Source: an uncultured Verrucomicrobiota bacterium (lineage in GTDB: Bacteria > Verrucomicrobiota > Kiritimatiellia > Kiritimatiellales > Pontiellaceae). From it: a stretch of 39,362 nt of DNA. The stretch covers positions 1 through 39,362 of the forward strand of contig CAJYAJ010000012.1 of assembly GCA_913065005.1 (NCBI GenBank), given 5' to 3'. Position 1 is the first letter of the stretch; each line of letters begins with the position of its first letter. Positions 1-30,746 of this stretch are shown here, piece after piece. Under the pieces are notes generated by a model, which saw only the letters and a program-made list of their open reading frames with translations, did no database searches and had not been told where the DNA came from. Both the position numbers and the translations under genes were made by a program.

Positions 1-2
1 AG

Positions 3-389
3 ATAGAGCGATTGATTGAATTAAGCGGGAGTGCGGAGCAGTTTGATCTGATCATGGATCGGGTGTTTTTGCAGTATCGTTCGATGATGAATGAGGTGCC
101 GGAGGATGTATGGCCGATTATAAAAGAAGAGTTGAACGGAGAGATGTTTAACGAGCTCATGCGGTCGATGATTCCGGTTTATGCCAAGCATTATTCGATG
201 GAAGATATTCAGGCTCAAATAGATTTTTATGAATCGCCTGCTGGTCAGCGCATGGTGAAGGTCATTCCTGAGATAACGGATGAGGTGACGCTACTATCGA
301 TACAATGGGCTGAAAAACTAAATAAAGAAATACAGATGCGCATCCAAGAACTAGGGAAACAAGAAGCTGTTGCCGAAGAGCAGATGTAA
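3..389 (+). CDS. DUF2059 domain protein, 5' end outside the window
   Basis: The frame is open from the first bases of the window, so the true start probably lies upstream; the first possible internal start is a TTG at 12. The visible 125 or so residues carry the DUF2059 hallmark: a segment Pro-Val-Tyr-Ala-Lys-His-Tyr, then an acidic stretch, then FYESPAGQRMV, followed by a Pro-Glu-Ile turn and a long C-terminal helix. DUF2059 proteins are usually exported and of unknown biochemical role; the signal peptide would be in the missing part. The gene ends 6 bases before the end of the convergent alr gene. The family call is good; the function is unknown. Confidence 0.75.
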   Translation: MERLIELSGSAEQFDLIMDRVFLQYRSMMNEVPEDVWPIIKEELNGEMFNELMRSMIPVYAKHYSMEDIQAQIDFYESPAGQRMVKVIPEITDEVTLLSIQWAEKLNKEIQMRIQELGKQEAVAEEQM

Positions 390-395
390 GGGGTT

Positions 396-1502: not shown

Positions 1503-1523
1503 GTGGGGCGAAGGTCTCTATGT

Positions 1524-1676
1524 TTATCGGTGATAGAAGTTTTTTTCGCGCCAGGCACGGGATTCGACATTGACGTTTTGATTATGCTGTTTTTGGGCTT
1601 CAGCATCGTTGAGTTGGGGAAGCTCTTTGAGGGAAGTGGGTTTTTTCTCAGGGGGATTTATGGGTTGTTCATTCAT
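1524..1676 (-). CDS. Small hypothetical protein, 50 residues, between argC and alr
   Basis: I do not recognise this protein. The frame begins with ATG at 1676, preceded by a GGAG ribosome-binding site about 10 bases upstream, and ends with TAA at 1524-1526. It starts about 20 bases after the argC stop and ends 21 bases before the alr start, so it fits exactly into the operon. The peptide begins MNEQPINPPEKKPTSLKEL, is hydrophilic and proline/lysine-rich at the N-terminus and Asn/Gln-rich in the middle, and ends in a basic aromatic segment (AWREKNFYHR). There is no signal peptide or membrane segment. Evidence for coding is the ribosome-binding site and the snug fit; no domain is recognised. 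Confidence 0.6.
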   Translation of the reverse strand: MNEQPINPPEKKPTSLKELPQLNDAEAQKQHNQNVNVESRAWREKNFYHR

Positions 1677-1696
1677 GGTGTTTTTTTCTCCATCGA

Positions 1697-2746: not shown

Positions 2747-2816
2747 ATTTATCTCCCCAATTAGTTAAGAAGCATAACAAGGCGGAAAGCAAAGTCCATC
2801 GTTTAGATGGTTCAAC

Positions 2817-4382: not shown

Positions 4383-4444
4383 GCCAACCTCTCTGTTTTA
4401 CTTTGCTTTCAAGTCCAGATCGTTTTAAAGGTAGGGTAATCAAG

Positions 4445-4458
4445 GTTTGAGTTCAAAC
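4445..4458. promoter_or_regulatory. 14-bp palindrome between murJ and the LpxC-like gene
   Basis: GTTTGA and TCAAAC form a perfect inverted repeat around a 2-base centre, ending 14 bases before the ATG of the LpxC-like gene in the divergent intergenic region. It could be an operator or a weak hairpin in the leader. No regulator is identified and nothing in the sequence shows that it is bound. Confidence 0.3.
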
Positions 4459-4472
4459 AGGAAGCGGATGTT

Positions 4473-5510
4473 ATGAGTGAGGGAATAGGACGGGTACTTG
4501 CCGGTGATGAAAGTGCGATCTCTGCTTCATGGAATGAGATGCAGAGGCAGTCTGTGGATTGGAACTTAAGTGGAAAAGAGCTGCCTCGGTTACGGTGTAT
4601 GCAGACGACGTTGGCTCGATCTGAGTCTATTTCTGGGCCGGGCACGTTTATGGGAAAGGCTACGCGGTCGATTGTATTGGAGCCAACGACGTTGGAGGGC
4701 TGGTGGTTAGATCGGACTGATTTGCCGGGTTCATTGCCGATTCGGGTGGGGATTTCTAATGTATGGACGACGGGTCAGATCGTGAGTAATATTGTGCTAC
4801 GAAGCGGTAATCCTCATAACTATGTTCGGATGGTGGAGCATTTGATCTGTTTGCGGATGGGCATGAGTGTGGATAATTTGGTGATTAAGCTCGATTCTGG
4901 TGATCCGCCTCTCTTTGATCAAGGAAGTCTGGATGTGGTGGAAGCGTTGGATCGGTGTGGTCGAGTGGAGAGTGATAAGCCGGTTTCGTATTTGAGTGTG
5001 CCTCATCCTGTTTCGGTGGGAGGAACGTATGGTGATTTTGTTACGTTGGCACCGCCGTTGGATCCGGAGAATCCGCAGTTGACGATTGATTGTGCGATTG
5101 ATTTTAAGACGCATATCGGGCAGCAGCGGATTGTGTTTCCGGTGTGCGAGGAGTTGATGCGGATGGCATCGGTGGCGCGAACGAATACGTCGTGGGCGAA
5201 GGTGTTGTATTGCCGTACGATTGGGCGGTTGTTTGCGGATGTGCGGAATTTGGGATATACGTCTCAAAACGTGCTGATTGCGGGGCGGAATCGGTATATG
5301 AATGAGCCGCGGTTGGTGCATGAGGGGAAGGCGTTGGAGGCGGTGTGGCATCGGTCGGTGTTGGATTTGTTGGCGGCGATTGCGTTGATTCCGAATGGGC
5401 AGTTTGTGGGGCATATTACGTCGTATAAGGCGGGGCATCGGTTGGATTGTGAGTTGATGCGGCAGTTGTATTTGAATGAGGTGCTGGTTCCGTTGGAGCT
5501 GGGTGGATGA
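4473..5510 (+). CDS. LpxC-like protein (UDP-3-O-acyl-GlcNAc deacetylase family), divergent
   Basis: LpxC is the zinc deacetylase that commits UDP-acyl-GlcNAc to lipid A. This 345-residue protein is longer than usual LpxC (about 305) through an N-terminal extension of about 60 residues. Domain I features follow: an RTDLPG segment near 81-86, then VEHL with E122 and H123 matching the catalytic Glu and first zinc His. Domain II has [10 protein letters not shown] near 209, CRTIGRLF near 247, and [10 protein letters not shown] ending at H322, matching the C-terminal active-site His. The central motif is odd: LpxC has His-Lys-x-x-Asp followed by Gly-Asp, but here it reads [10 protein letters not shown] (H293-D298), with one extra residue between the zinc His and Asp and the Gly-Asp lost. 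It may be an inactive or altered-substrate paralogue. The start has AGGAAG upstream. The stop overlaps the yjbQ start (ATGA). Confidence 0.75.
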
Positions 5511-5923
5511 AGAGTTTTCGTAAGGAGCTTTGGTTTGAAGCACCGCAGCGACGGCAGATCGTTCCTATTACGCCGGAGGTGGAGGCGTGTTTGGCGGAGT
5601 CGGGTATTCGGGAGGGGCTTTGTTTGGTGAATGCGATGCATATTTCGGCGTCGGTTTTTATCAATGATAACGAGAGCGGGCTGCATCGGGATTATGAGCG
5701 GTGGTTGGAGAAGCTGGCACCGGAGAAGCCGTATGATCAGTATGATCACAATGGATATGAGGATAATGCGGATGCGCATCTAAAGCGAACGATTATGGGG
5801 CGTGAGGTGGTGGTTGCCGTTACGGATGGTGCGCTTGATTTTGGGCCGTGGGAGCAGATCTTCTACTATGAGCTGGATGGGCTTCGTAAAAAACGGGTGC
5901 TGGTGAAGATTATCGGGGCGTAA
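5507..5923 (+). CDS. yjbQ: YjbQ/UPF0047 family protein
   Basis: The 138-residue protein is a full-length YjbQ family member. It shows the family's conserved stretches in order: [15 protein letters not shown] near 45-59, an ERWLEKLAP helix, a tyrosine/aspartate-rich loop, [15 protein letters not shown] near 92-106, then [15 protein letters not shown] and a C-terminal strand ending KIIGA. Family members have been annotated as secondary thiamine-phosphate synthases on the basis of weak activity, but their main role is unsettled. The ATG overlaps the stop of the LpxC-like gene by 4 bases (ATGA), so the two are translationally coupled. It ends 18 bases before the end of the convergent ABC gene. 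Confidence 0.9.
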
Positions 5924-5941
5924 TTTCTATCTATTCAATGA

Positions 5942-7693
5942 TCATGCTTGATGTTGCATGAGTTGGCAGAGCTGATGGTAGTAGCCATGGTGGGCTATGA
6001 GTTCATCGTGGGTGCCTGAGTCGATTAATTCGCCGCCGCGCATGACTAGAATTCGATCGGCATGGCGGATGGTGGAGAGTCGGTGGGCAATGATGATGCT
6101 GGTCCGGTTTTGCATGAGTTTTCCAAGTGCATCTTGAATGAGGAGTTCGGTGGCGGTGTCGATGCTGGCGGTGGCTTCGTCGAGGACGAAGAGGAGTTCG
6201 GGATTTTGTGCAAAGGTTCGTGCCATTACGAGCAGTTGTTTTTGTCCGAGTGAAAGTCCTTCACCGCGTTCATTTAGGGGTGTGTTGTAGTTGTTTTTAA
6301 GTTGATCAATGAAGGTGTGTGCATTGACGGTTTGAGCGGCTTTTTCGATTTGTTGTGTGGTGAGGTCGGGGTTGTGTAATCCGATGTTATCGGAGATGGT
6401 TCCTGCAAATAGGAAGGGGTCTTGGAAGACATATCCGAGTCGCTGGCGCAGGTCGGTTTGGTCGAAGTCACGGATGTTGATGCCATCGATGGTGATGGTG
6501 CCTTGTTGGATGTCGTAGAAGCGGCCGATGAGGTTGATGATGGTGCTTTTTCCGGCTCCGGTGGCACCCACTATGGCGAGGGCTTGTCCGGGTTCCACTT
6601 TGAAGGAGAGATCTTTAATTACCCAGTTGTCGTCGTCGTAAGCAAACCAGACGTTTTTAAATTCGATGGTTCCGCTAAGTTGAGGTGGAATAATGGGGTG
6701 TTCGTTGTTTTGAATGTCGGGTTGCCGGTTGAGTAGGGAGAAGACTCGTTCTACCGAAGCGAGTGCAACTTGAAAGGAGCTGGCTTTTTCTGAAAGGGAG
6801 CTGAGGGGGCGGAAAAAATCCCGGACGTAGGCAAGGAATGCGACGAAGATGCCGAGGGTGATGAATTCAGAGCCGTTGAGTAGCAGGATGCCTCCCATTC
6901 CAAGAATGAGGAGTGAGGCAAGGGCTTGCCCGCCTTCGACGGTGGGAAAGGAGAGAGAAAACCAGCGGACTTCTTTGAAGTAGGCGGTGCGAAGTTGGGT
7001 ATGTTTTTCATCGAAGTCTTGGATGGCGGATGCTTCGCGGTTGAAGAGCTGGATGGTATTCATGCCGGTTAAGCTTTCTTGTAGGTAGGCATTTTGAGCG
7101 GCTTGTTTATCGCGAATTTCGCGGTTGGCATTTCGAAGGTTGCGATTGATATACACGAGAAGGGCGTAGAGAACGGGGAGGGTTAAAAAGAGGGTGCCTG
7201 CGAGGGGTGGGCTGATATAGAGCATGTAGCCCATAATACCGAGTAACATAAAGAGGTCGGCGAGGGTGCCGACGACTCCGTCGGTTACAAAGTTCTGAAG
7301 GCGTTCAATATCGGATGTGACTCGCGTCATGAGAGTGCCGACGGGTGTGCGGTCGAAATAGGCTTGGTGCATGGTGAGGACTTTTCTAAAAACGGCAAGA
7401 CGGAGGTCATAAATAATGCGTTGCCCGATGTAGGCGGTAAGTAAGCCTTGTAGATATCGCACGAGATGGCCGATGCCGGCGATGACGACATAGAGGAGGC
7501 TTAACTTTCCAAGGAGTTCGATGCGTTGATCGACGGGTTGATCGGGCTGCATGAGGCAGTCGTCGGTGATGCGCTGGATGATGAGTGGTAGATAGTTGAT
7601 TGCGAGTGAGGTGGAGAGGATGAGCAAAAAGGCGCCTGCCAGCCAGAGGCGGTAGGGTCGAATGTATGTGAGCAATTGACGTGTTATTTTCAT
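5942..7693 (-). CDS. ABC exporter half-transporter (MdlB-like), catalytic-Walker-B partner
   Basis: This 583-residue protein fuses an N-terminal six-helix exporter domain (about 1-320) to an ATPase domain. Walker A is GATGAGKS (376-383), Walker B with catalytic glutamate is LFVLDE (E506), and the switch histidine lies in IIAHRLS. The signature motif is LSLGQ (480-484) instead of LSGGQ. Its partner, upstream and overlapping by 4 bases (ATGA), has a normal signature but no catalytic glutamate. Together they fit a heterodimeric exporter such as TM287/288 or LmrCD, with one consensus and one degenerate ATP site. The substrate cannot be told from sequence; multidrug or lipid export are the usual roles. 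Confidence 0.9.
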   Translation of the reverse strand: MKITRQLLTYIRPYRLWLAGAFLLILSTSLAINYLPLIIQRITDDCLMQPDQPVDQRIELLGKLSLLYVVIAGIGHLVRYLQGLLTAYIGQRIIYDLRLAVFRKVLTMHQAYFDRTPVGTLMTRVTSDIERLQNFVTDGVVGTLADLFMLLGIMGYMLYISPPLAGTLFLTLPVLYALLVYINRNLRNANREIRDKQAAQNAYLQESLTGMNTIQLFNREASAIQDFDEKHTQLRTAYFKEVRWFSLSFPTVEGGQALASLLILGMGGILLLNGSEFITLGIFVAFLAYVRDFFRPLSSLSEKASSFQVALASVERVFSLLNRQPDIQNNEHPIIPPQLSGTIEFKNVWFAYDDDNWVIKDLSFKVEPGQALAIVGATGAGKSTIINLIGRFYDIQQGTITIDGINIRDFDQTDLRQRLGYVFQDPFLFAGTISDNIGLHNPDLTTQQIEKAAQTVNAHTFIDQLKNNYNTPLNERGEGLSLGQKQLLVMARTFAQNPELLFVLDEATASIDTATELLIQDALGKLMQNRTSIIIAHRLSTIRHADRILVMRGGELIDSGTHDELIAHHGYYHQLCQLMQHQA

Positions 7694-9465
7694 GCATCAC
7701 CTTCCAGTTGTTGTTGAAGATTTTGCTGAAGATGTAGTTCGGCATAATAGCCGGGTTGAGTGAGGAGCTCTTGGTGGGTACCTTGCTGTGTGATGTGCCC
7801 ATTTTCAATAACGATAATACGATCAGCGTAACGAAGGGTAGAGATCCGGTGGCTGATAAAGAGTGTGGTTCGCTGATCCATAATGGGTTTGAGTTTTTGC
7901 ATGATCGCGGCTTCGGTTTGGGTGTCGACGGCGGAGAGAACATCATCGAGAATAAGAATTTCAGGGCGACGGGCGATTGCGCGTGCAATGGCGGTGCGTT
8001 GACGTTGTCCGCCAGAGAGGGTGACGCCGCGTTCTCCGAGGAGCGTTTGAAGTCCTTTTGGGAAACCTTCTATTTCGTTGGTGAGGTGGGCGGCTTCAGT
8101 GGCCCATGCGAGGGTGTCGGGTTCATGTTGAGTAAGCCCAAAGGCGAGGTTGTGCTCAAGGGTTTTGGAGAAGAGGATGGGTTCTTGGAGGGCGCAGCCC
8201 ATTTTTTTACGGATGGTTTGTAGGGGGAGTTGCTGAAGTGGAACTCCGCCGAGGGTGATTTCGCCTTGGGTGGGATCAACGAGACGGGCGGTTAGGGCGG
8301 CTAGCAATGATTTACCGCATCCGGTGGGACCGGTGATGCCTAACGTGGTTCCGGTGGGGATGGTGAGGGAGAGTTGGTTGATCAGTTTGCGATCATCGAT
8401 CTCGAGTGAGACGTCTTTGAATTCAATATCATGATGGGGAAGGGGTTCGGTTTGGGGGGTCTCGGTATCGGTGAGTTTGGGTTCTGCATCGAGCATGGAA
8501 CGCACTCGACCCCAACTGACGACGCCGCGTTGATAGAGGCTGGAGGTCCAAGAAAGAGCCAGTAGAGGCCATTGCATGTAGAGTAGATATTGAATAAATT
8601 GGGTGAGCGTTCCGAGGGTGAGCTCTCCGGCGATGATGCGGCGACCGCCGACGTTTAGAATGAGAATCATTCCCACGCCAAACCAGAATGCCATGAAAGG
8701 CCAGAGGCTTTGTCGGGTTGCCTGCATGAGCATATTTTTTTTGATGAGTCCTTGGTTTAATCCTTCAAACTGTTGATTGCGGCGTTCTTCGAGGGCAAAG
8801 CCTTTCAGGCAGCGTATTCCGCTGAAGCTTTCTTGAGAGAAGTTGGAAAGCTCTGAGACTTGTTCTTGGAGTTCTTTTTGGCGTCGTCGCATGACGCGTA
8901 AGATGAGGAAGAAGATGATGACCATGGGGACGTATAAGGCATAAACGATGAGTGCAAGTTGTCTGTCTGTAAGAAGCATGACGATGAGCGCGAACACCAG
9001 GACAACAATGGTTCGAATGCCTTGTAGAAGACCTTGTCCGATGGCATCGCGTACCATGTTGATATCGGATGAGAGGCGCGTCATTAAATCGCCGGTTCGT
9101 TGGGTGTGAAAATAGGAGGCATCAAGGCGTGTGAGATGCGCGAAAATGTCTTTACGAAGATGATACTCGGCTTTGTGGGAAAGTTTAAGTGGGATTTTGC
9201 GAAGTAAACGTGAGAAGACAACGGCGGTGAGGCCAAAGAGAAAATAGCGAAGTAGGAGGGTGTAGAGTTGAGCGTGGTCCAGTGCTTGGTCGGTCAGACC
9301 ATCAATAACCAGTCGCATGAGATAAGGAAGATAGAGGTTGATTCCAACCGCTACGAGGACGGCGATCGTGGTATAAATGATCTCGCGGCGATAGGGCCGA
9401 ACGTAGGGCATAATTTTAGCAGTTGGTTGATTGATGTGTTCTCTCCGTTGAGCGGTCCATACCAT
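7690..9465 (-). CDS. ABC exporter half-transporter (MdlA-like), degenerate Walker B partner
   Basis: The protein has about 591 residues: an N-terminal exporter membrane domain (roughly 25-320) and a C-terminal ATPase. Counting from the ATG at 9465, Walker A is GPTGCGKS (379-386), the signature LSGGQ is canonical (483-487), and the Walker B reads ILILDD, so D508 replaces the catalytic glutamate. This is the change seen in the non-catalytic subunit of heterodimeric exporters. An in-frame GTG two codons upstream (9471) is an alternative start. The stop overlaps the start of the second half-transporter (ATGA), giving equal, coupled expression. The next gene upstream is divergent. Confidence 0.9.
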   Translation of the reverse strand: MVWTAQRREHINQPTAKIMPYVRPYRREIIYTTIAVLVAVGINLYLPYLMRLVIDGLTDQALDHAQLYTLLLRYFLFGLTAVVFSRLLRKIPLKLSHKAEYHLRKDIFAHLTRLDASYFHTQRTGDLMTRLSSDINMVRDAIGQGLLQGIRTIVVLVFALIVMLLTDRQLALIVYALYVPMVIIFFLILRVMRRRQKELQEQVSELSNFSQESFSGIRCLKGFALEERRNQQFEGLNQGLIKKNMLMQATRQSLWPFMAFWFGVGMILILNVGGRRIIAGELTLGTLTQFIQYLLYMQWPLLALSWTSSLYQRGVVSWGRVRSMLDAEPKLTDTETPQTEPLPHHDIEFKDVSLEIDDRKLINQLSLTIPTGTTLGITGPTGCGKSLLAALTARLVDPTQGEITLGGVPLQQLPLQTIRKKMGCALQEPILFSKTLEHNLAFGLTQHEPDTLAWATEAAHLTNEIEGFPKGLQTLLGERGVTLSGGQRQRTAIARAIARRPEILILDDVLSAVDTQTEAAIMQKLKPIMDQRTTLFISHRISTLRYADRIIVIENGHITQQGTHQELLTQPGYYAELHLQQNLQQQLEGDA

Positions 9466-9522
9466 AGGCACTCAGGTTTGTATTTCAAGTTTCGTTTGAA
9501 GTGGAGCGAAGTTACAGAATTT

Positions 9523-9568
9523 TGGCAAGGGAGTTGCCATTGACTTTGATTAGAGGGAAGAGTAGAAA
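9523..9568 (+). promoter_or_regulatory. Palindrome followed by a sigma70-like promoter for the oxidoreductase-miaB pair
   Basis: TGGCAA and TTGCCA form a perfect inverted repeat around GGGAG at 9523-9539. It is followed at once by TTGACT (9540-9545), a 17-base spacer and TAGAAA (9563-9568), a reasonable -35/-10 pair about 57 bases before the ATG at 9625. A palindrome abutting the -35 element is a usual place for an activator or repressor. A second weaker hairpin can form in the leader around 9572-9602. The regulator is unknown. Confidence 0.4.
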
Positions 9569-9624
9569 AATGCGCTTGCAACCACATCGTTGTATGCTTG
9601 CGCCTAAATTATGGGAGCGATAAT

Positions 9625-10284
9625 ATGTTAACAGCAACTAAAATACGATTCACGGGAGCCGTTCAAGAGGTTCGTCGACTAACGGATGAGACGATTGTTC
9701 TACGTATGGAGCGGGGCGATATTGATTTTGAGCCGGGGCAGTATGTGCGAATCGGGGTTGATGGAGATTCTGAAATTCGTGATTATTCGGTCTATTCGGG
9801 AAATAATAAGCCGTATTTGGAGGTGCTTTTACGTCGTGTGGAAGAGGGGTTGGTATCGAAACAGTTATTTGGCCTTGAAGCGGGCGATAAGGTGATGATT
9901 GGTGGGCCATATGGGCATTTCAAGTTGGTGGAGGAAGTGCGATCAAACCCACTCTTGTTCATTGCAACGGGAACAGGCATATCGCCCTTTAGAAGTTTCT
10001 TGGAGTCGTATAAAGGATTACATTATCGTCTGATTCATGGCACGAGTTATTTGAATGAGGGATATGAAAAAGAGATTTATGGCGATCGCTATTTTCATTG
10101 TGTTTCTCGGGAAAAGGGCGGTGATTATCAAGGACGTGTGACAGACTATTTGAAAGATGTCGAATTTACACCAGATACGAATGCGTTTTTATGCGGTAAT
10201 TGCGATATGATCTATGATGTCTTTGATTTACTGCAAGAGCGTGGATTGCCAACCACACAAATTCATACAGAAGTTTATTTTTAA
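9625..10284 (+). CDS. Ferredoxin/flavodoxin-NADP+ reductase-like flavoprotein
   Basis: The 219-residue protein has the two domains of the FNR family. The FAD domain carries RDYS (52-55) in the RxYS position and GPYGHF (94-99). The NAD(P) domain carries GTGISPFRS (116-124) and a C-terminal CGNCDMIYDVF (190-200), where the nicotinamide-side Cys-Gly motif sits, ending in an aromatic Phe that may stack on the flavin. It likely moves electrons between NADPH and ferredoxin or flavodoxin. An upstream TTG at 9598 would add nine residues, but the ATG at 9625 has a GGGAG site 8 bases upstream. It lies 5 bases before miaB, a radical-SAM enzyme that needs reduced flavodoxin or ferredoxin, which suggests it may supply electrons to MiaB; that link is inference. 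Confidence 0.85.
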   Translation: MLTATKIRFTGAVQEVRRLTDETIVLRMERGDIDFEPGQYVRIGVDGDSEIRDYSVYSGNNKPYLEVLLRRVEEGLVSKQLFGLEAGDKVMIGGPYGHFKLVEEVRSNPLLFIATGTGISPFRSFLESYKGLHYRLIHGTSYLNEGYEKEIYGDRYFHCVSREKGGDYQGRVTDYLKDVEFTPDTNAFLCGNCDMIYDVFDLLQERGLPTTQIHTEVYF

Positions 10285-10289
10285 TTGTT

Positions 10290-11645
10290 ATGAAGTGCTG
10301 TGTTATTACGCTGGGTTGCCAGATGAATCAGTCCGATTCAGAGCGAATCCGAAGCGTAATAGAAGGCGTGGGTTTTGAGATGACCGATCGTGAGGAGGAG
10401 GCTTCTTTGATCGGTATTGTAGCTTGCTCGGTTCGACAAAAAGCGATTGATAAGGTCTACAGTAAGATCCATAAATGGAACCAATGGAAGAAAGAGCGTG
10501 ATCTGGTTACCTTTGTTTCAGGGTGCATCTTGCCAGCAGATGAAGAGAAGTTTTTAAAGCTGTTTGACCTGCTTTTCCGGATGAACCAATTGCGTGAATT
10601 GCCCGATATGCTTCGTCAGTGTGGTATGGCTACGGCGTTTGCGGCGCGGAATCCATTGGATTCGGTGAATCGAGTGGATGATTTAACCGATTTTTGGCAG
10701 GTTAATCCCAGTTATAGTAAATCGTTTGAGGCGTTTGTTCCGATTCAGAATGGGTGTGATAAATTTTGTTCTTTTTGTGCCGTTCCTTATACTCGGGGTC
10801 GTGAAGTATCGCGCTCAAGTCGGGAAATTATTCAAGAAATAACATCTTTGGTCGCTAAGGGTGTCAAGTCCATTACGTTGTTAGGGCAGAATGTTAATTC
10901 GTATGGATTAGATCGAGCGGGGGAGGAGATTTCTTTTGCCGATTTGTTGCGTAAAATTGGGGAGCTCGGAAAAGAATCAGACAAAGACTTTTGGGTCTAT
11001 TTTACTTCTCCACATCCGCGGGACATGACGCGTGAAGTAATAGAAGTGATTGCTACCTATCCGGTCTTAGCAAAACAGATTCATCTGCCTCTTCAGAGTG
11101 GCGATGATAAATTGTTGCGTCGGATGAATCGGAATCATGATGTGGCGGATTATATGGAAGTGGTTAGGGATATTCGTGAATTAATCCCGCAGGCGACGCT
11201 ATTTACAGATATTATTGTTGGGTTTTGTGGTGAGAGTAAGGAGCAGGTCGAGCGAACCGCTGAAGTTATGTTAGATGTTCAATATAACATGGCATATATC
11301 GCGAAGTATTCGCCGCGTGTGGGCGCTCGTTCGGCCCGTTGGGAAGATGATGTCTCGAATGAAGAGAAGAGTGAGCGGTTAGCGCGGTTAACAGAGGTGC
11401 TAAAGCGAACCTCTTTACTTCACAATGAGTCGTTAATCGGCAAGCGAATGAAGGTTTTGGTGGAGCGGGTCGATCCGCGGGTAGAAAATGCGGTGGCGGC
11501 GCGGACAGAGGGTAAATTACCTGTACGTGTGAGTAACGTTTCGGAGGAGGCAGTCGGAACCTTTATGGAGGTGGAGATTACCTCGGCATCCGAACTTTCA
11601 CTGAGTGGAAATCAAGTGCATCATGCGATATTGATTAGCTCTTAA
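10290..11645 (+). CDS. miaB: tRNA-2-methylthio-N6-dimethylallyladenosine synthase
   Basis: MiaB is a radical-SAM methylthiotransferase that adds the 2-methylthio group to i6A37 in tRNAs reading UNN codons. The N-terminal UPF0004 domain has three cluster cysteines: C10 in TLGCQMNQSDSE, C46 in VACSVR (usually Asn-Thr-Cys), and C79 in VSGC. The radical-SAM cysteines are C156, C160 and C163 in CDKFCSFC. A LGQNVNSYG stretch and a C-terminal TRAM domain (about 385-448) complete the family layout. The 451-residue length is normal. The IGQNVNSYG-type motif and the MNQSDSE motif favour MiaB over RimO or MtaB. It follows the FNR-like gene by 5 bases, so the two are probably one operon. Confidence 0.93.
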   Translation: MKCCVITLGCQMNQSDSERIRSVIEGVGFEMTDREEEASLIGIVACSVRQKAIDKVYSKIHKWNQWKKERDLVTFVSGCILPADEEKFLKLFDLLFRMNQLRELPDMLRQCGMATAFAARNPLDSVNRVDDLTDFWQVNPSYSKSFEAFVPIQNGCDKFCSFCAVPYTRGREVSRSSREIIQEITSLVAKGVKSITLLGQNVNSYGLDRAGEEISFADLLRKIGELGKESDKDFWVYFTSPHPRDMTREVIEVIATYPVLAKQIHLPLQSGDDKLLRRMNRNHDVADYMEVVRDIRELIPQATLFTDIIVGFCGESKEQVERTAEVMLDVQYNMAYIAKYSPRVGARSARWEDDVSNEEKSERLARLTEVLKRTSLLHNESLIGKRMKVLVERVDPRVENAVAARTEGKLPVRVSNVSEEAVGTFMEVEITSASELSLSGNQVHHAILISS

Positions 11646-11682
11646 TTTATTTAAGCAGCAGGGCATCTTTTATTTTTAGGTA

Positions 11683-12213
11683 GTTAGTTCAAATGGCACA
11701 TATTTAGCCGTTGCTGCCTATGGAAATGCTATGGATGCTGATTTTCAGCCCTACACAAGTTTCTCGAAGGTAGATAATAACTTAACTGATGAAGACAATG
11801 ATGGATTACCAACACATCTGGAAATATTAGCGGGTACAGATGATAATAGTTTCGATAGTGATGGAGATCTTTTTGGAGATTATGTCGAATACTACACTGT
11901 TGGATTCAACCCAGTCGTTAATGTGTATTTTTCATTAACTTCTAATGTGCCGGAAGGATTAGATCCTATCTATTATATAGTTAGTCAGCCAACACCCTCA
12001 ATGCTTTCAACTAATGAGGCATATTCAATGCTAGACTCTGCTTATGCAGATGACATCGTCATGAGTGTGTCTAATGATGTGGCTGAAATTGTCATGACGA
12101 TTGAACAATCGACGAATTTATCAGTTGGTTCATGGATAACAAATAAGTTTGTAACAAACTCAATACCTGTTGATTCAGATGCATCGTTCTTTAGATTTCG
12201 TCTCGTTGAATGA
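11683..12213 (+). pseudogene. 3' remnant of a secreted protein with a thrombospondin-type-3-like repeat
   Basis: The longest reading from an ATG (11731) gives 160 residues, but the frame continues upstream to 11683 with peptide-like sequence (SSNGTYLAVAAYGNA) and no start codon, then hits a TAG at 11677. This suggests the tail of a larger gene that lost its 5' part. The visible part has an acidic repeat (DEDNDGLPTHLEILAGTDD, then SFDSDGD) of the calcium-binding thrombospondin type 3 kind. The C-terminus, with an EQSTNLSVGSW segment and FFRFRLVE at the end, resembles tails of secreted proteins in Kiritimatiellota-like genomes. No signal peptide remains. Composition is more AT-rich than in the neighbours. 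It could instead be a short real gene; a GGA sits 6 bases before the ATG. Confidence 0.5.
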
Positions 12214-12276
12214 TGAATAATTCTTTTATGCCGAAAGAAAAATAGAATGGACCTCTCAGAGCCATCAAGGATCTAC

Positions 12277-12379
12277 GATTGTTGCTTTTTGTTTGCTGGA
12301 TATCGTTGAATACAGGCACGGATGGATGTGGGCTTAGTAGAGTGCTCGGATCAGATGGAGCGGGTAAAGAACATCATAT
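12277..12379 (+). pseudogene. Fossil of the start of an rmuC gene
   Basis: Bases 12313-12365 match 12971-13023 inside the intact rmuC at 40 of 53 positions without gaps, including a 17-base exact match. Read in the rmuC frame, the fossil gives IQARMDVG, then SDQMERVKNII, against LQTRMDAG and SDQMERVEQIM in RmuC, preceded by a hydrophobic stretch that matches the RmuC membrane helix. An in-frame TGA and a TAA at the end show that it is dead. An in-frame ATG at 12247 could be the old start. The intact gene lies 580 bases downstream on the same strand. Confidence 0.7.
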
Positions 12380-12387
12380 GTGGTTGT

Positions 12388-12406
12388 AACTTTCACTAAG
12401 TGGAAA
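12388..12406 (+). repeat. 19-base near-copy of the miaB 3' end
   Basis: This stretch differs at one position from bases 11593-11611 near the end of miaB. In the matching frame it reads LSLSGK, against LSLSGN in MiaB. It follows directly after the rmuC fossil, the order expected at the junction of a tandem duplication running from miaB's tail to rmuC's head. The match is short, so by itself it could be chance. Confidence 0.45.
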
Positions 12407-12408
12407 AC

Positions 12409-12442
12409 CGCTTGATCAGCATTCGACTGAACCGATCAAGCG
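12409..12442 (-). terminator. Possible terminator of the lysine-rich DUF2934-like gene
   Basis: CGCTTGATC and GATCAAGCG form a perfect 9-base stem with a 16-base loop, 10 bases past the stop codon of the leftward gene. On the minus strand the stem is followed by GGTTTTCC, a short T-run. The long loop and weak T-run make this only a moderate candidate. Confidence 0.4.
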
Positions 12443-12451
12443 TGTACTGGC

Positions 12452-12766
12452 TCAGAGTAGGTTTTGTATTTCTTCTTGTGCGGCATTCCAATATTCGCAG
12501 GGATCTTTTTTAAATTGGTCGTTGAGTGCCGCGAAATAAGCAGCTTGTTCCGTCATGGTGTAAATTTGTTCGGAGTTGTAGGTGGGTTTCTTTTTGGGTG
12601 TGGCTTTTTTCTGAGCTGGGATTTTCTTTTTTACGGCCGATTTTGGAGTGGCTCTCTTTTTCGTAGGGGTTTCTTTGATTGTGGATTTTTTAGTGGGTGT
12701 TTTTTTCGAGGCGATTGATTTGGTTTTGTTTGTTGTTGTTTTTTTGTTTGTTGTTTTTTTCGTCAT
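12452..12766 (-). CDS. Lysine-rich histone H1-like tail with C-terminal DUF2934-like domain
   Basis: The 104-residue protein has two halves. Residues 1-60 or so are a Lys/Thr/Pro/Ala tail with repeated TPKK- or TPTKK-like units, as in bacterial histone H1-like proteins that bind DNA or RNA without a fold. The C-terminal part (about 65-104) contains EQAAYFAALN and CEYWNAAQEEI, resembling the DUF2934 pattern of an alpha-helical AAY...W..A..EI motif. The ATG has an AAAGGA ribosome-binding site. It is divergent from rmuC, with about 126 bases between the starts. A nucleoid-associated role is plausible but not shown; the tail match is compositional. Confidence 0.7.
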   Translation of the reverse strand: MTKKTTNKKTTTNKTKSIASKKTPTKKSTIKETPTKKRATPKSAVKKKIPAQKKATPKKKPTYNSEQIYTMTEQAAYFAALNDQFKKDPCEYWNAAQEEIQNLL

Positions 12767-12892
12767 GGCTCTAATCCTTTCTGTTAATAATTTAACTAAT
12801 CTTATTAAGAAAATAGGATTTGTATTAAAAAGTCGATCAATGATTTGAAATTCTTGTTTAGTGAATCGATCATTCTTTGGTTTAATGTAGAT

Positions 12893-14032
12893 ATGGATGG
12901 AATATTAATAGTGATGGGATGGTTGCTTTTGCTGGGGCTTGCTTTGCTCTTGGTGGGTTTTGTTCGTTTGCAGACGCGAATGGATGCGGGTATGCGACAG
13001 CGTTCGGATCAGATGGAGCGAGTGGAGCAAATTATGCGTGAGCTAGAGAAGGAGCTGCGGGAAGATGTGGATAAAGTGCGCCAGCGCGTTGATGAATCGT
13101 TGGAGCGCAGTGGGCGGCAGTTAGGAGAACGGTTTAAAGAACTGGTTGCAACCAATGAGCGTCGGTTGGGTGAAATTAGCGGTCGGGTTGAGGAGCGCTT
13201 GGATAAGGGATTTGAAAAAACAACCAGCGTCTTTAGTGAAGTTCAAAAACGATTGGCGTTGATTGATAAGGCGCAAGAGGAGATGGCGGCATTATCGGGG
13301 AATGTAGTTTCATTGAAGGAAATTTTGGCAGACAAACGGTCACGAGGAGCCTTTGGTGAAGTGCAGTTGAGTGGCTTAATTACGAATGTTATGCCGCCGA
13401 ATAGTTATGCTGAGCAGTATACGTTTGGAAGCGGAGTTCGTGCGGATTGTGTCCTTTTTTTACCCGAGCCTACGGGTACGCTTTGTATTGATTCGAAGTT
13501 TCCTTTGGAAAGTTATCAGGTGATGGCAAGTCCGGATCGTTCAGATCCGGAGCGAAAGCAAGCGGAGCAACAGTTTCGGCAGGATATTAAAAAACATATA
13601 AAAGATATCGCTGAAAAATATATTATTCCGGGAGAGACTGCTGATGGTGCGGTGATGTTTATTCCGGCGGAAGCGGTATTTGCAGAGATTCATGCGCGGT
13701 TTCCTGATTTGGTTGAAACGGCGCAGCAAGCACGGGTTTGGTTGACGTCACCCACGACGATGATGGCGGTGTTGACGACATCTCGAGCTGTGCTAAAGGA
13801 TGCAGCTACGCGAAAGCAGGTGCATATTATTCAAGATCATTTAGTGGCTCTGTCGAAAGATTTTGAGCGGTTTCAATCTCGGATGGGAAATTTGGCAAAA
13901 CATATTGATCAGGCGAATCGGGATGTGGAAGAGGTGCATACATCGGCCCGAAAAATTTCAAGTCGCTTTGAAAAGATCGAAAAAGTGGAGTTGCATCAGG
14001 AGCCGGAACTCTTAGATGGACTGGAAGATTAA
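12893..14032 (+). CDS. rmuC: RmuC family protein (putative DNA recombination protein)
   Basis: RmuC proteins limit inversions at short inverted repeats in E. coli and contain a predicted PD-(D/E)xK nuclease core. Here the 379-residue protein has one N-terminal membrane helix (about 4-23), a long Arg/Glu-rich coiled coil (about 25-140), then the conserved domain: KRSRGAFGEVQL, a segment ending ADCVLFLP, CIDSKFPLE with the likely nuclease Asp and Lys, then FIPAEAVFAEI and VWLTSPTTMMAVL, followed by a C-terminal coiled coil. The ATG at 12893 is chosen because it places the membrane helix right at the start; an upstream TTG at 12845 would add 16 residues. A dead copy of its first codons lies at 12277-12379. 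It ends by overlapping the stop of the convergent zinc-protein gene. Confidence 0.88.
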   Translation: MDGILIVMGWLLLLGLALLLVGFVRLQTRMDAGMRQRSDQMERVEQIMRELEKELREDVDKVRQRVDESLERSGRQLGERFKELVATNERRLGEISGRVEERLDKGFEKTTSVFSEVQKRLALIDKAQEEMAALSGNVVSLKEILADKRSRGAFGEVQLSGLITNVMPPNSYAEQYTFGSGVRADCVLFLPEPTGTLCIDSKFPLESYQVMASPDRSDPERKQAEQQFRQDIKKHIKDIAEKYIIPGETADGAVMFIPAEAVFAEIHARFPDLVETAQQARVWLTSPTTMMAVLTTSRAVLKDAATRKQVHIIQDHLVALSKDFERFQSRMGNLAKHIDQANRDVEEVHTSARKISSRFEKIEKVELHQEPELLDGLED

Positions 14033-14406
14033 AGGTTGAATTTCGAATCGCTGTTTTCTTTGCGTTTATTGAATTGAGGGCAGCTGTCGGTGGCTTGAAC
14101 CTCTTTCTTATGAAGGGCACAGAATTGCGTGAAGGGGTTTACGATGTAGTTTGCACAGTGTCGACAGAGGGTTTTAGCTTCGGATTGAGAGAAGAGTTGG
14201 GGATTTTTGGGTCGATCGGAATTGGTAAAGATGGCGGTTTGAGGGGTGTCGTGGCGAAAGGGTACGGCGTCTTCGTTGGGATAGACGTGGCCGCAAGCAG
14301 AGCAACTGAGACATTCACCTGTTTTGGTTAGCCCGTGGTATAGCGCATCGCGTTGTAAGAAACTTTCCGTTCCGCAATTGATGCAATTGATCTCTACTTT
14401 TGCCAT
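14029..14406 (-). CDS. Small cysteine-rich protein, likely zinc-binding
   Basis: I do not recognise a named family. The 125-residue protein has two cysteine clusters. The first is a zinc-ribbon-like pair, CINC near residue 8 and CSAC near 36, separated by a basic segment. The second is CRHC near 80, then FCALH and a final Cys in DSCPQF, a spacing like small proteins that coordinate one metal through CxxC...C...C. There is no signal peptide, so it should be cytoplasmic. The ATG at 14406 is only 26 bases from the start chosen for the divergent dprE1-like gene, so their promoters must overlap or lie in each other's leader. The stop overlaps that of rmuC by 4 bases. Confidence 0.75.
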   Translation of the reverse strand: MAKVEINCINCGTESFLQRDALYHGLTKTGECLSCSACGHVYPNEDAVPFRHDTPQTAIFTNSDRPKNPQLFSQSEAKTLCRHCANYIVNPFTQFCALHKKEVQATDSCPQFNKRKENSDSKFNL

Positions 14407-14432
14407 CAATTCTATGTATATTGATTGCAGCT

Positions 14433-15782
14433 ATGGAACAAGTGGTAAATGAGATGCAGAATCAAAAGGTAGCGGATTGGGGCAATTACCCGGTCGTGGA
14501 GGCAGAGACCGTTCGGTTTGATCAAGCGGATCAGCTCCAAGTGGCGCTTGGAAAGCCGGGTGAAGTGATTGCGTATGGGAATGGGCGGAGTTATGGCGAT
14601 GCCTCATTACAGAAGCGGGTGATCATGACGCGTTCGTTCCGTTCGTTCTTATCGTTTGATGCGGCTACCGGTATAGTTTGTTGTGAGTCGGGAGCTTTGT
14701 TGGCTGAGTTGTTGGAGGCGTTTGTGCCACGTGGTTGGTTTTTGCCGGTTTCGCCGGGAACAAAGTTTGTGACGGTGGGTGGTGCTGTTGCGGCAGACAT
14801 TCATGGAAAAAATCATCATGTAGAGGGTTCGTTCGGGGCGCATGTGTTAGCGTTAGAGGTGATGCGAGCGGATGGTTCGGTTATTCGCTGTTCGCGGGAG
14901 GAACATCCTGAATTTTTTACACTGACGGTGGGCGGTATGGGATTGAGTGGGGTGATTATGAATGTAACCCTGCAATTAAAAGCGATTGAGTCGGCTTGGA
15001 TGCAACAGCAAACCGTTCGGGGGTCGCGGTTGAGTGAGTTGATGGATGCGTTTGAATCGGATGAGGATTGGACGTATTCAGTGGCTTGGGTGGATACCTT
15101 GGCGGGTGGTGATGCGCTGGGGCGGGGATTGTTGATGCGGGGTGAGCATGCGACTGCTGAACAGGTGCAGGGTCGTTCGGTTGGGGCAGGTACTTCGCAG
15201 ATGAAGATAAACGTGCCTCTTTTTTTGCCGAATGGATTATTGAATCGAGGCACGATGAAGGCATTTAATAGCGTTTATTATCATCGAAATCAGCAACCAG
15301 TCAGGGAGCGCTTGGTTCATTATGAGTCGTTTTTTTATCCGTTAGATTCGATTGGGAATTGGAATCGGATCTATGGTCGGCGTGGGTTTATGCAGTATCA
15401 ATTTGTACTTCCACGGGCGACGGGTCGGGTGGCGGTTGAGGTGATCTTGAAGAAGATTCAAGCAAGTGGATTGGGTTCCTTTTTAGCGGTGCTTAAGTTG
15501 TTTGGTGAGCAGGAGAGTTTTATTTCGTTTCCCATGGCTGGTTATTCGTTGGCGCTTGATTTTCCGGTTTGTTTTGAGGTGTTCAAGTTGATGAAGGAGT
15601 TGGATGCGATGGTTGCTGACTGGGGGGGGCGTCTCTATTTGGCAAAAGATGCGCGGATGGATGAGGCGATGTTTGCGAAAACCTATCCGCATGCGAATGA
15701 TTTTAGAGAGGCAATTGCTTTGTTGAACGGGGGTTCAACTCGCTTTAGTTCGTTGCTATCGAATCGATTGGGGATTACATAA
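14433..15782 (+). CDS. DprE1-like FAD-dependent oxidase
   Basis: DprE1 oxidises decaprenylphosphoryl-ribose at C2' as the first half of epimerisation to the arabinose donor. This 449-residue protein matches the family over its whole length: the FAD-binding GNGRSYGDAS near 49-58, VTVGGAVAADIHGKNHH near 113-129, TVGGMGLSG, the segment FLPNGLLNRG, the YGRRGFMQYQF region, and AKDARM near the C-terminus. The position equal to Cys387 of the mycobacterial enzyme, where benzothiazinones attach, is Ala here (SLALDFP). An alternative start is ATG 14454. The stop codon shares one base with the start of the DprE2-like gene. The lipid-linked sugar is unknown; in Gram-negatives these pairs occur near polysaccharide genes. 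Confidence 0.88.
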   Translation: MEQVVNEMQNQKVADWGNYPVVEAETVRFDQADQLQVALGKPGEVIAYGNGRSYGDASLQKRVIMTRSFRSFLSFDAATGIVCCESGALLAELLEAFVPRGWFLPVSPGTKFVTVGGAVAADIHGKNHHVEGSFGAHVLALEVMRADGSVIRCSREEHPEFFTLTVGGMGLSGVIMNVTLQLKAIESAWMQQQTVRGSRLSELMDAFESDEDWTYSVAWVDTLAGGDALGRGLLMRGEHATAEQVQGRSVGAGTSQMKINVPLFLPNGLLNRGTMKAFNSVYYHRNQQPVRERLVHYESFFYPLDSIGNWNRIYGRRGFMQYQFVLPRATGRVAVEVILKKIQASGLGSFLAVLKLFGEQESFISFPMAGYSLALDFPVCFEVFKLMKELDAMVADWGGRLYLAKDARMDEAMFAKTYPHANDFREAIALLNGGSTRFSSLLSNRLGIT

Positions 15783-16513
15783 TGGAACGCATATTAATCA
15801 TCGGTGCCACTTCGGATATGGGTCAAGCGTTTGCACACGCGTGTGCATTGCAGGGATCATCGATTATGTTGGCAGCGCGTAATGAAGCTACCTTGGAGCG
15901 AGTGGCGAATGATTTACGTGTGCGTTGTGAGGTTGGGGTGAGCACGCATACTTTTGATGTATTGGATATGGAGCAGCATGAAGCTTTTTATGCGTCGTTA
16001 CCGGAGCGGCCGGATGGGGTGATTTGTTTTGTGGGATTGCTTGGTGATGCGGTGAAGTGTCGGCAATCATTTGAGGCGGCACGGCGGGTGTTGGATACGA
16101 ATTTTACGGGCGTGATTTCGATTTTAGATCGGGTGGCGGATGAGTTCGAGAAGCGGGGTCGAGGTTGGATCGTGGGAGTGAGCTCGGTAGCGGGTGATCG
16201 GGGTCGGGCACCTCGATATCATTATGGTTGTGCGAAGGCGGGATTGAATGCCTATCTCTCGGGGTTGCGTCAGCGGTTGTTCAAGTCTGGTGTTTTTGTG
16301 ATGAATGTGAAGCCGGGGTATTGTCGGACTAAGATGGTTGCGGGATGGGATCTTCCGGCTGCGATGACGTCTGAACCGGATGAAGTGGCAAGGGCGATTT
16401 TGAAGGCGTTGCGTCGAAAACAAGAGACGCTCTATGTGCGTTGGATGTGGCGATGGATTATGGGCGTGATTCGCTTGTTACCGGAGTTTATTTTTAAACG
16501 ATTAAAAATATGA
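15782..16513 (+). CDS. DprE2-like short-chain dehydrogenase
   Basis: This 243-residue SDR is the likely reductive partner of the upstream oxidase: DprE2 reduces the 2'-keto sugar to the arabinose configuration. The cofactor motif GATSDMG is at 8-14, the catalytic serine is near S135 in VSSVAGDRGR, and the YxxxK pair is Y148 and K152. The C-terminal end (about 220-243) is basic and hydrophobic, as in DprE2, and may touch the membrane where the polyprenyl substrate sits. The start is the TAATG overlap with the oxidase gene, so the two are translationally coupled. It ends 1 base before the end of the convergent decarboxylase gene. Confidence 0.88.
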   Translation: MERILIIGATSDMGQAFAHACALQGSSIMLAARNEATLERVANDLRVRCEVGVSTHTFDVLDMEQHEAFYASLPERPDGVICFVGLLGDAVKCRQSFEAARRVLDTNFTGVISILDRVADEFEKRGRGWIVGVSSVAGDRGRAPRYHYGCAKAGLNAYLSGLRQRLFKSGVFVMNVKPGYCRTKMVAGWDLPAAMTSEPDEVARAILKALRRKQETLYVRWMWRWIMGVIRLLPEFIFKRLKI

Positions 16514-16514
16514 G

Positions 16515-17474
16515 TTATTTGCCTGCGCTCAGGAGCGTATCGAAATATTCAATGGTTTTATCGAGCCCTGCTCGTAGTTCGATTTGAGGTTCCCAGTTGA
16601 GATGCTGTTTCGCTAAGGTGATGTCGGGACGCCGCTGTTTGGGGTCATCTTCGGGTAGGGGTTTGAATACTAATTCTGAGGAAGAGTTCGTGAGTTCTAA
16701 AATGGTTTCGGCTAGTTCAATCATGGTGAATTCACCGGGGTTGCCGAGGTTGATGGGGCCGGTTACGGATGAATCGCTAGCCATTAGTCTAATAAAGCCT
16801 TCGATGAGATCATCGCAATAGCAAAAGGAGCGTGTTTGTTTGCCATCTCCATAAATGGTGATGGCGTCGCCTTGCAGTGCTTGCATGATGAAGTTGGAGA
16901 CGACGCGTCCGTCTTGTGGATGCATGCGGGGTCCATACGTGTTGAAAATCCGGACGACTTTGATCTCTAGTTGATGCTGCCGGTGATAATCAAAAAAGAG
17001 GGTTTCTGCGCAGCGTTTTCCTTCGTCGTAGCAGGAGCGGATTCCGATGGGATTGACGTTGCCCCAGTAGGATTCTGGTTGTGGGTGAATCGTCGGGTCG
17101 CCGTAGACTTCGGATGTAGAGGCTTGGAGTACTTTTGCTTTCACACGATTGGCTAAACCGAGGACGTTGATGGCTCCATGGACGCTGGTTTTTGTGGTTT
17201 GAACTGGATCAAATTGGTAGTGCACGGGTGAGGCTGGGCAGGCAAGGTTGTAGATCTCGTCGACTTCAACATAAAAGGGAACGGTGACATCTTGGCGCAT
17301 GAGCTCAAAGTAAGGGTTGTCCATCAGGTGGGCGATGTTGGCTTTTCGCCCCGTAAAAAAATTGTCCATGCAGAGCACATCATGACCTGCATGGAGTAGC
17401 TGCTCACAGAGGAAAGAACCAAGGAAACCGGCCCCACCAGTGACTAAGACACGTTTTTTTATTACTTCTTTCAT
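16515..17474 (-). CDS. UDP-glucuronate decarboxylase (UDP-xylose synthase) family
   Basis: This NAD-dependent extended SDR of 319 residues matches UDP-xylose synthases, which turn UDP-glucuronate into UDP-xylose. The NAD motif GGAGFLG is at 13-19, the catalytic Y149 and K153 lie in SCYDEGKR, and the family segments [13 protein letters not shown] near 75-87, TSEVYGDP near 120 and NTYGPRM are all present. The ATG has an AGGAGA ribosome-binding site. It is convergent with the DprE2-like gene and divergent from the aminotransferase. With the DprE pair it makes a pentose theme for a surface polysaccharide, which is inference from proximity. Confidence 0.9.
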
Positions 17475-17545
17475 GCACTTCTCCTAAAGGCGAATAGTAG
17501 AACATGAGCTGTAAAGGAATAGAATTTTAAATCGATTAAATTTAG

Positions 17546-17563
17546 GTATGCTATTTTGCATAC
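17546..17563 (+). promoter_or_regulatory. Inverted repeat in the leader of the aminotransferase gene
   Basis: GTATGC and GCATAC form a perfect 6-base inverted repeat around TATTTT, ending 16 bases before the ATG at 17580 and just ahead of the AAGGA ribosome-binding site. It may be an operator or a small leader hairpin. It is short, so chance is possible. Confidence 0.3.
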
Positions 17564-17579
17564 GTTAAAAAGGAATTAT

Positions 17580-18551
17580 ATGAAAAAAATACCGATTGTT
17601 GGGGCAGATCAGTGGCGATTGAAAGCAGATTTAGGGCGAGCGTCGTTGTATGCGATGTATGCGTCGACAACGGGTTGTATTACGACCGATCCGATGGTGA
17701 TGACGGTACCGGTGGATGATCATTTGGTGCATCGTGGAGATGGGGTATTTGAATCGTTCAAGTGTGTGGAGGGAAGTATGTATAATCTGGATGCTCATTT
17801 GAGGCGGCTAGAAGTTTCCTGTTTAGCCATTGGATTATCGCTGCCGGTCGAGTTGCATTTGTTGAAGGAGGTGGTAGTTCAGACGGTTCGAGCGGGGGGG
17901 GCAAAAGATGCGTTGGTGCGTTTGTTGGTTTCGCGAGGTCTGGGTACAATGGGAATTGATCCTTCGGCCTGTTCAGGAGAGCAACTTTATGTGGTGGTAT
18001 ATCCATTGAATACAACGGGTGGGGTGGGTGCTTTTTCATCGGGTGTGCGGGTGATCACGAGTCAGATTCCAGTGAAACCTGGTATGTTTGCGCGGGTGAA
18101 GAGTTGTAATTATTTACCGAATGTTTTGATGAAAAAAGAGGCGGTAGATGGTGGAGTGGATTTTTCGGTTTCGGTGGATGAAAGCGGATGTTTGGGTGAG
18201 GGAGCAACGGAAAACTTTGGGATTGTTTCGGCGGACAATCGGCTTTTGATGCCCCCGCCGGAGCGGGTGTTGGCGGGAACGACGGCGAAGCGGGCCATGG
18301 AGCAGGCGCAGCAATTGGTGGATGAAGGTCTATTGAAAGAAGCGGTTTATGAACCCATTCCGATGGATGAGGTTCGGCGGGCGAATGAGATGCATGTTTA
18401 TGGAACAACCCCTAATATTACCTCGGTGATTGAGCTGGATGGGGTCGCTGTGGGTAATGGGGTTCCGGGGCTTGTGGCAAAACGTCTTTATGAGCAGATG
18501 CGAACGGAGATGTTGCCGCAGAGTGAATGGTTAACACGGGTATTTGAGTAG
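17580..18551 (+). CDS. Class IV PLP-dependent aminotransferase
   Basis: The fold is that of branched-chain and D-amino-acid aminotransferases and aminodeoxychorismate lyase. The 323-residue protein has HRGDGVFES near 51-59, the PLP lysine K174 in VKSCNYLPN, E207 in the GEGATENF segment that contacts the PLP ring nitrogen, and a late GTTPNITSV loop at the phosphate end. The HRGDGVFES and NYLPNVL motifs resemble D-amino-acid aminotransferase-like and 4-amino-4-deoxychorismate lyase-like members, so the exact substrate is open. The ATG at 17580 has AAGGA upstream; an upstream in-frame start at 17556 is less likely. It ends 4 bases before the CYTH gene, in one operon with it. Confidence 0.85.
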   Translation: MKKIPIVGADQWRLKADLGRASLYAMYASTTGCITTDPMVMTVPVDDHLVHRGDGVFESFKCVEGSMYNLDAHLRRLEVSCLAIGLSLPVELHLLKEVVVQTVRAGGAKDALVRLLVSRGLGTMGIDPSACSGEQLYVVVYPLNTTGGVGAFSSGVRVITSQIPVKPGMFARVKSCNYLPNVLMKKEAVDGGVDFSVSVDESGCLGEGATENFGIVSADNRLLMPPPERVLAGTTAKRAMEQAQQLVDEGLLKEAVYEPIPMDEVRRANEMHVYGTTPNITSVIELDGVAVGNGVPGLVAKRLYEQMRTEMLPQSEWLTRVFE

Positions 18552-18555
18552 TTGT

Positions 18556-19023
18556 ATGGGTGTTGAAATTGAGCGTACATTTTTAGTGTCTGATGGTGTG
18601 TGGCAGTCACAGGCGGATGAGGGTCTTGTGTGTGTGCAGGGTTATTTGGTTGCTACACCGGAGTTGACGGTGCGGGTGCGAATAATGGGGGTTCATGGAT
18701 TTCTCACCATCAAAGGGGCGACTGAAGGGATTCGTCGATCTGAATATGAATATCCGATTCCGTTGGAGGAGGCCGAAGAGTTATTGCATAGCTGCTCTAT
18801 CCGTGTTGAGAAGCGACGGTATCGGGTTGAGGTTGAACAGCATGTTTGGGAGGTGGATGTGTTTACCGGAGCGAATGAAGGATTGGTTCTTGCGGAGGTG
18901 GAGCTTTCATTTGAAGAGGAATTTTTTGTGCGTCCGAATTGGCTAGGAGATGAAGTTTCAGATGACGCGCGCTACAGCAATGCGCGGCTTGCTCAAGAGG
19001 CATTTTCAAGTTGGGCTAAATAG
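18556..19023 (+). CDS. CYTH domain protein (triphosphate tunnel metalloenzyme family)
   Basis: The 155-residue protein begins MGVEIERTFLV and has the eight-stranded CYTH pattern: TVRVRIMG and FLTIKG strands, EKRRYRVE in the middle, and an acidic strand LAEVELSFEEE near the end. CYTH proteins hydrolyse or bind triphosphates with metal. The usual ExExK signature is altered here, with Thr in place of Lys (EIERT). Acidic and basic tunnel residues are otherwise present. It follows the aminotransferase by 4 bases. Its last 31 bases overlap the end of the convergent photolyase-related gene. The specific activity is unknown. Confidence 0.8.
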   Translation: MGVEIERTFLVSDGVWQSQADEGLVCVQGYLVATPELTVRVRIMGVHGFLTIKGATEGIRRSEYEYPIPLEEAEELLHSCSIRVEKRRYRVEVEQHVWEVDVFTGANEGLVLAEVELSFEEEFFVRPNWLGDEVSDDARYSNARLAQEAFSSWAK

Positions 19024-30740: not shown

Positions 30741-30746
30741 GCGTTT

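Follow-up and report, generated by a model that had tools for sequence, protein, structure and literature searches.

How does a dead start of rmuC come to lie some 580 bases upstream of the living gene, in the chromosome of an uncultured, marine-type relative of Pontiella? The stretch of DNA analysed here (the window, 39,362 nucleotides) is one contig of a genome of 1.2 Mb that is 79% complete and in 44 contigs. The initial annotation had drawn attention to 53 bases, 12313-12365, that match rmuC at 12971-13023; this match (75% identity, 17 identical bases in a row) and the peptide read from it, IQARMDVG...SDQMERVKNII, are both present as described. With gaps allowed the likeness covers 12282-12382 against 12939-13040 and scores 36; the maximum among 500 dinucleotide shuffles is 18, and the runner-up place for the fossil query in the window, on either strand, scores 16. 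A search of the window's own genome with 12277-12379 (E <= 0.001) returns the query itself and rmuC only, and the direct repeats of at least 40 bases that lie within 3 kb of each other in the window form two families: the fossil with rmuC, and a low-complexity run inside a histone-H1-like gene.

For comparison we used genomes of the same family or genus, 29 including the window's own (28 in the genus-level comparisons of the H1-like gene and miaB). Two relatives carry most of the argument: G009, whose proteins are 97% (MiaB) and 91% (RmuC) identical to those of the window, and G004, for which the figures are 81% and 78%. In G004 the H1-like gene lies between miaB and rmuC, whose matches are about 415 bases apart. 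The G009 genome is 63% complete, and its spacer was deduced by abutting two contig ends at the rmuC start codon: one contig stops at miaB plus about 170 bases, which reach the start codon, and another opens within codon 2 of rmuC; a search of this partial genome found no H1-like match. The question raised with the original observation, whether the spacer between the two genes is single or doubled in related genomes, thus has an answer: single in G004 and, by contig-end abutment, single in G009. Among the 29 family genomes a query of 12214-12451 finds, at E <= 0.001, only the window's own, G004 (by its miaB-tail part) and G009 (by its rmuC part). miaB and rmuC are seen less than 1 kb apart on the same contig in the window and G004 only; they share a contig at a distance of 7-16 kb in G001, G002, G007, G010 and G019, and in the remaining genomes they lie on separate contigs or one of them has no close match.

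Table 1. Features of the miaB-rmuC interval, with positions in the window.
Feature	Position	Strand	Basis
miaB, tRNA methylthiotransferase, living	10290..11645	+	NCBIfam MiaB equivalog TIGR01574, above cut-off
19-bp miaB stretch repeated downstream	11593..11611	+	G004 alignment halts at 11611, resumes at 12388
Insert replacing 13 bases of the G009 spacer	11695..12213	+	519 bp; holds ORF 11731-12213 (160 aa)
rmuC fossil	12214..12382	+	G009-type leader (12214-12287) and 5' end (12286-12382)
Junction of two allelic versions	12383..12387	.	G009 and rmuC alignments stop at 12380-12382; G004 alignment starts at 12388
miaB 3' end fossil, G004 type	12388..12451	+	58/64 identical to G004
Histone-H1-like protein, 104 aa, G004-like	12452..12766	-	NCBIfam H1-like, E 2.3e-4, under its cut-off
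Living rmuC leader and 5' end (to ~codon 26), G004-like	12767..12975	+	distance ratios; best breakpoint 12976
Living rmuC body, G009-like (87-89%)	12977..14032	+	Pfam RmuC, E 1.3e-65

The fossil is a pseudogene fragment of rmuC, with homology beyond chance and a protein that cannot be made. It was correctly called dead, although by one in-frame stop and not several: a TGA at 12307-12309, just before IQAR and adjoining a deletion of 2 bases as compared with G009; from there the reading frame stays open through the junction until a TAA at 12397-12399. The fossil has lost its start codon and roughly the 15 codons that begin the gene (some 81 bases, by comparison with the abutted G009 contig ends), so that the hydrophobic stretch which had been noted is in the place of the RmuC membrane helix, as claimed, but is a mere leftover of it; at the other end the fossil is cut off at about codon 47. 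Nothing suggests a function for the remnant, and an Rfam search of 3000-15000 yielded no RNA gene at gathering score.

Where this fragment came from is told by its leader part, 12214-12312, of which the aligned portion is mostly leader (12214-12287). Against the G009 contig ends it scores 29.5, which none of 1000 shuffles reaches; the corresponding values are 13.8 (reached by 21 of 1000) against G004 and 11.8 (321 of 1000) against the living copy. A dead rmuC 5' end is therefore what the initial annotation had found, but the decay of a duplicate of the living start explains it poorly, both because its leader matches G009 and not the living copy, and because a miaB 3' end fossil and the H1-like gene, each alignable with G004, come directly after it.

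This second fossil had been missed. The miaB 3' end at 11593-11611 recurs at 12388-12406, with 18 of 19 positions identical; the repeat scores 17, the shuffle maximum is 15 (n=500) and a pair of overlapping sites on the opposite strand score 16, so that taken by itself it is weak evidence, and it acquires weight only through G004. The window and G004 are colinear over 3762-18588 but for an insertion between 11611 and 12388, and 12388-13038 aligns with G004 end to end, from the last miaB codons through the opposite-strand H1-like gene into rmuC. The living miaB, in its last codons (from 11612), is of G009 type: miaB tail and spacer (11593-11694) agree with G009 at 87 of 98 positions, and the G004 match is limited to the first 19 bases. 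At 12383-12388 the ends that are joined have, by eye, no homology in common, rmuC at about codon 47 abutting a miaB tail. The rmuC fossil marks one side of this junction, between two allelic miaB-rmuC versions set head to tail.

The living rmuC changes ancestry in its turn. Along the living path, informative sites in 12767-12970 are G004-like at 59, G009-like at 18 and neither at 12, and in 12971-14032 the counts become 57, 210 and 32. The best breakpoint is 12976 (Fisher p 2.8e-19, a nominal value for the best of 700 cut points), and the distance ratio d(window,G004)/d(G009,G004), 0.30 (12776-12898) and 0.42 (12899-12975) before it, is 0.95, 1.00 and 0.88 after it. In RmuC as now encoded, a membrane helix of G004 type would precede a body of G009 type.

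The explanation that we favour, with a probability of about 0.6, is that a segment of one type (A) was imported into a chromosome of the other (B), the fossil being the original start of rmuC and the present start the imported one. Version B, related to G009, comprises miaB, a short spacer and rmuC, without the H1-like gene, and is most likely the ancestral state; version A, related to G004, comprises miaB, an inverted H1-like gene and rmuC. An incoming A-type fragment of ~590 bp would have carried a miaB 3' tail, the H1-like gene, and the rmuC leader with its first ~26 codons. On the right it would have entered the resident rmuC near 12976 by homologous recombination; on the left its miaB tail (12388) would have been fused to about codon 47 of that gene, with no homology visible between the two. 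By this exchange rmuC would have acquired its leader, start codon and membrane helix from the A-type DNA, and its former start, stranded upstream, would then have decayed by deletion, frameshift and stop. The sequences show the two ancestries, the junction and the switch point; we infer the direction of transfer, its having been a single event, and its mechanism, by one-sided homology or by unequal sister-chromosome exchange. Of these inferences the direction is the weakest point.

Identity along the interval bears on import in both senses. miaB and the rmuC body are 87-95% identical to G009 and 74-82% to G004. Within the segment, identity to G004 is 91% over 12388-12451, 95% over 12452-12620 (the C-terminal half of the H1-like gene), 71% over its N-terminal half (many gaps), 86% in the spacer and 79% in the rmuC head; 12388-12620 has no counterpart at the G009 locus. 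At fourfold sites the window agrees with G004 at 16/18 in the H1 C-terminal part, against 79/158 in miaB and 45/118 in the rmuC body (p = 3e-4), which favours import because a middle part that had descended together with the flanks should differ from G004 as they do. It is the H1 C-terminal part that carries this silent-site evidence, the whole H1 alignment giving 17/25 and the rmuC head 5/10; the unevenness of G004 identity along the segment, together with the low fourfold agreement in the rmuC head, we count against import.

The H1-like protein itself has a Lys/Thr/Pro-rich N-terminus and a more conserved C-terminus (YNSEQIYTMTEQAAYFAALNDQFKKDPCEYWNAAQEEIQNLL), and its residues 25-104 are 82% identical to those of G004; it reaches no family cut-off in Pfam, and matches to it at E <= 0.001 are present in 24 of the 28 genus genomes, the window's own counted. 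Slow silent change in this gene was considered in place of import. In codon identity over the H1 C-terminal part, the window and G004 (39/44) are the top pair of the 153 formed by 18 of the 28 genomes, those with a full miaB to hand and an H1 match, and the same pair stands at 0.55 in miaB; yet G001 and G010 follow closely (35/41), and the test is not decisive alone.

An ancestry step across the junction, with each flank from another lineage, was set aside: over the 1-kb bins to which G004 and G009 both align, the two flanks have similar d09/d04 values, 0.61 (1-11439) or 0.67 (3762-11439) on the left and 0.61-0.63 on the right. Both flanks are thus sister to G009, and the likeness to G004 in the middle piece is a local one. 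In bin 5001-6000 the window is again nearer to G004 (d04 0.066 vs d09 0.162), from which it follows that exchange with a G004-like lineage did happen in the window's genome.

Two observations concern other parts of the window. The stretch 5020-5860, which runs from the last part of ORF 4473-5510 through the greater part of ORF 5507-5923, is 92-100% identical to G004, the 97-base-bin median being 78%, and with bin 5001-6000 it marks a separate exchange; and bin 30001-31000 is nearer to G004 (0.220) than to G009 (0.341), over 123 shared sites only.

The same junction could have arisen with the roles reversed, version A being native and a B-type fragment (miaB tail, spacer and rmuC head to codon 47) having been added upstream, its left end by miaB homology and its right end without homology. 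We consider this unlikely, though it has a good deal in its favour. A G004-like miaB 3' end was already present in the common stem of the window and G009: the tract 11440-11611 is 95% identical between the window and G004 and 91% between G009 and G004, with 77% upstream, and is an older exchange common to the window and G009, so that the place was exchanged earlier or more than once, which makes the direction of its latest exchange uncertain. A convergent H1-like gene within 500 bp after miaB is common in the genus: besides the window's own, 23 genomes have an H1 match, and 13 of them show this arrangement. The fossil, too, leans towards G009: of the ten sites of 12971-13040 that distinguish the living copy from G009, it follows G009 at 5, the living copy at 3 and neither at 2, which counts against import since duplication of the resident body after the split from G009 should have left the fossil nearer to the living copy. 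These ten sites do not decide the direction, and in 13 of 18 outgroup loci (G003, G013, G014, G019 and G026 left out) RmuC N-termini look too variable for the ancestral head to be identified from them. What weighs against reversed roles is the living rmuC head and leader, whose closeness to G004 (ratio 0.30-0.42) and distance from G009 both exceed what simple vertical descent would give in a genome sister to G009; an A-type exchange is needed even then.

Closest to the view of the initial annotation is a tandem duplication within the lineage, of the living segment from miaB tail to rmuC head, after which the upstream copy would have decayed. Two successive rounds of miaB tail followed by rmuC head fit such an event, as does the identity of fossil and living copy at 75% of 53 bases, but we judge it improbable. 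Copies made in this way should be closer to each other than to relatives, and the leaders are not, the fossil's matching G009 (0/1000) and the living one matching it no better than chance (321/1000). A four-way MAFFT alignment gives a weaker sign to the contrary, with the fossil slightly nearer to the living copy (0.59) than to G009 (0.57), but it was probably misled by a wrongly closed 81-base deletion. Besides, the tail of the living miaB has just 19 bp in common with the G004-type one, and the upstream copy is without an H1-like gene.

That the assembly merged reads of two co-occurring strains is very unlikely. The window is indeed one contig of an incomplete genome, and its halves resemble two genomes; but the fossil has its own deletion, frameshift and stop, and is hence no live strain's rmuC, the A half differs from G004, and by eye the joins share too little sequence for an assembler to be misled (nothing at 12383-12387, some six bases at 12966-12973). 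Chance similarity, for which only the short length of the match might speak, is negligible, as none of 500 shuffles reaches the score, the sole other match in the genome is rmuC, and the rmuC of G009 matches the fossil independently (83% over 58 bp).

Import of the A-type segment has a known counterpart in homology-facilitated illegitimate recombination, where, in the accessible text of PMC3240628, incoming DNA has homology at one end and is joined illegitimately at the other. The present locus reads as a putative scar of that kind, with one boundary in homologous rmuC (~12976) and the other (12383-12388) lacking visible homology by eye, and with the recipient sequence at the join partly duplicated; unlike that system, it belongs to an uncultured Pontiella relative, and its donor, recipient and direction are inferred from sequence only. 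In the arrays of Vibrio T6SS effector-immunity genes and Rhs loci, as far as the available part of PMC5361080 describes them, a partly homologous incoming module displaces its resident counterpart, which is left as an orphan, and a mechanism akin to one-sided recombination is proposed there. Here too an incoming module would have pushed a resident piece aside, but the orphan is the dead 5' end of a housekeeping gene, whereas those covered in that text are immunity genes, which are kept, and 3' ends. Transformation of Streptococcus pneumoniae gives tandem merodiploids by unequal sister-chromosome exchange (PMC3784515, in the portion available), likewise with copies of a region in tandem; those described in that portion span ~100-900 kb and arise via repeats, whereas here ~0.6 kb is involved and there is no repeat at the join. 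Like ordinary gene remnants beside a parent gene, finally, the fossil is a truncated, frameshifted, non-coding relic; unlike them, it comes from another allele and not from the present 5' end of the adjacent gene.

The locus is accordingly a new and well-readable example of a known process at a housekeeping locus, not a new kind of event or system. It means that a fossil beside a living gene is not necessarily its decayed duplicate, but can be the original start displaced by import, and that such a scar locates an exchange between lineages with a local gene difference of ~20-25%. The succession of gene head, neighbour's tail, neighbour gene and whole gene offers a pattern by which scars of one-sided recombination could be searched for in unculturable genomes.

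A more speculative idea, and a doubtful one, is that in this clade the miaB-rmuC interval is a small exchange hot spot, in which the H1-like gene would be a cassette with the ends of its neighbour genes as homology arms, arrivals swapping those ends and leaving the old ones as fossils. Were this so, each arrival could bring a new MiaB C-terminus and a new RmuC leader and membrane helix, as in Rhs/T6SS arrays but at housekeeping genes.

The miaB fossil may be more than a relic. A hairpin predicted in 12396-12450 (55 bases, -19.0 kcal/mol; -19.1 in G004, -4.7 for the G009 tail) adjoins the 3' end of the H1-like gene, which is on the minus strand, and is followed on that strand by GGTTTT. It may be the terminator of the H1-like gene, in which case part of the apparent miaB fossil would be a retained regulatory end.

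The 519-bp insert upstream of the rmuC fossil is possibly itself a displaced gene end. The protein of its ORF resembles parts of larger proteins in the genus, with 36% identity to a 621-aa frame in G018, and a stop-bearing relative of the ORF is found at G000:C13:13688-13825.
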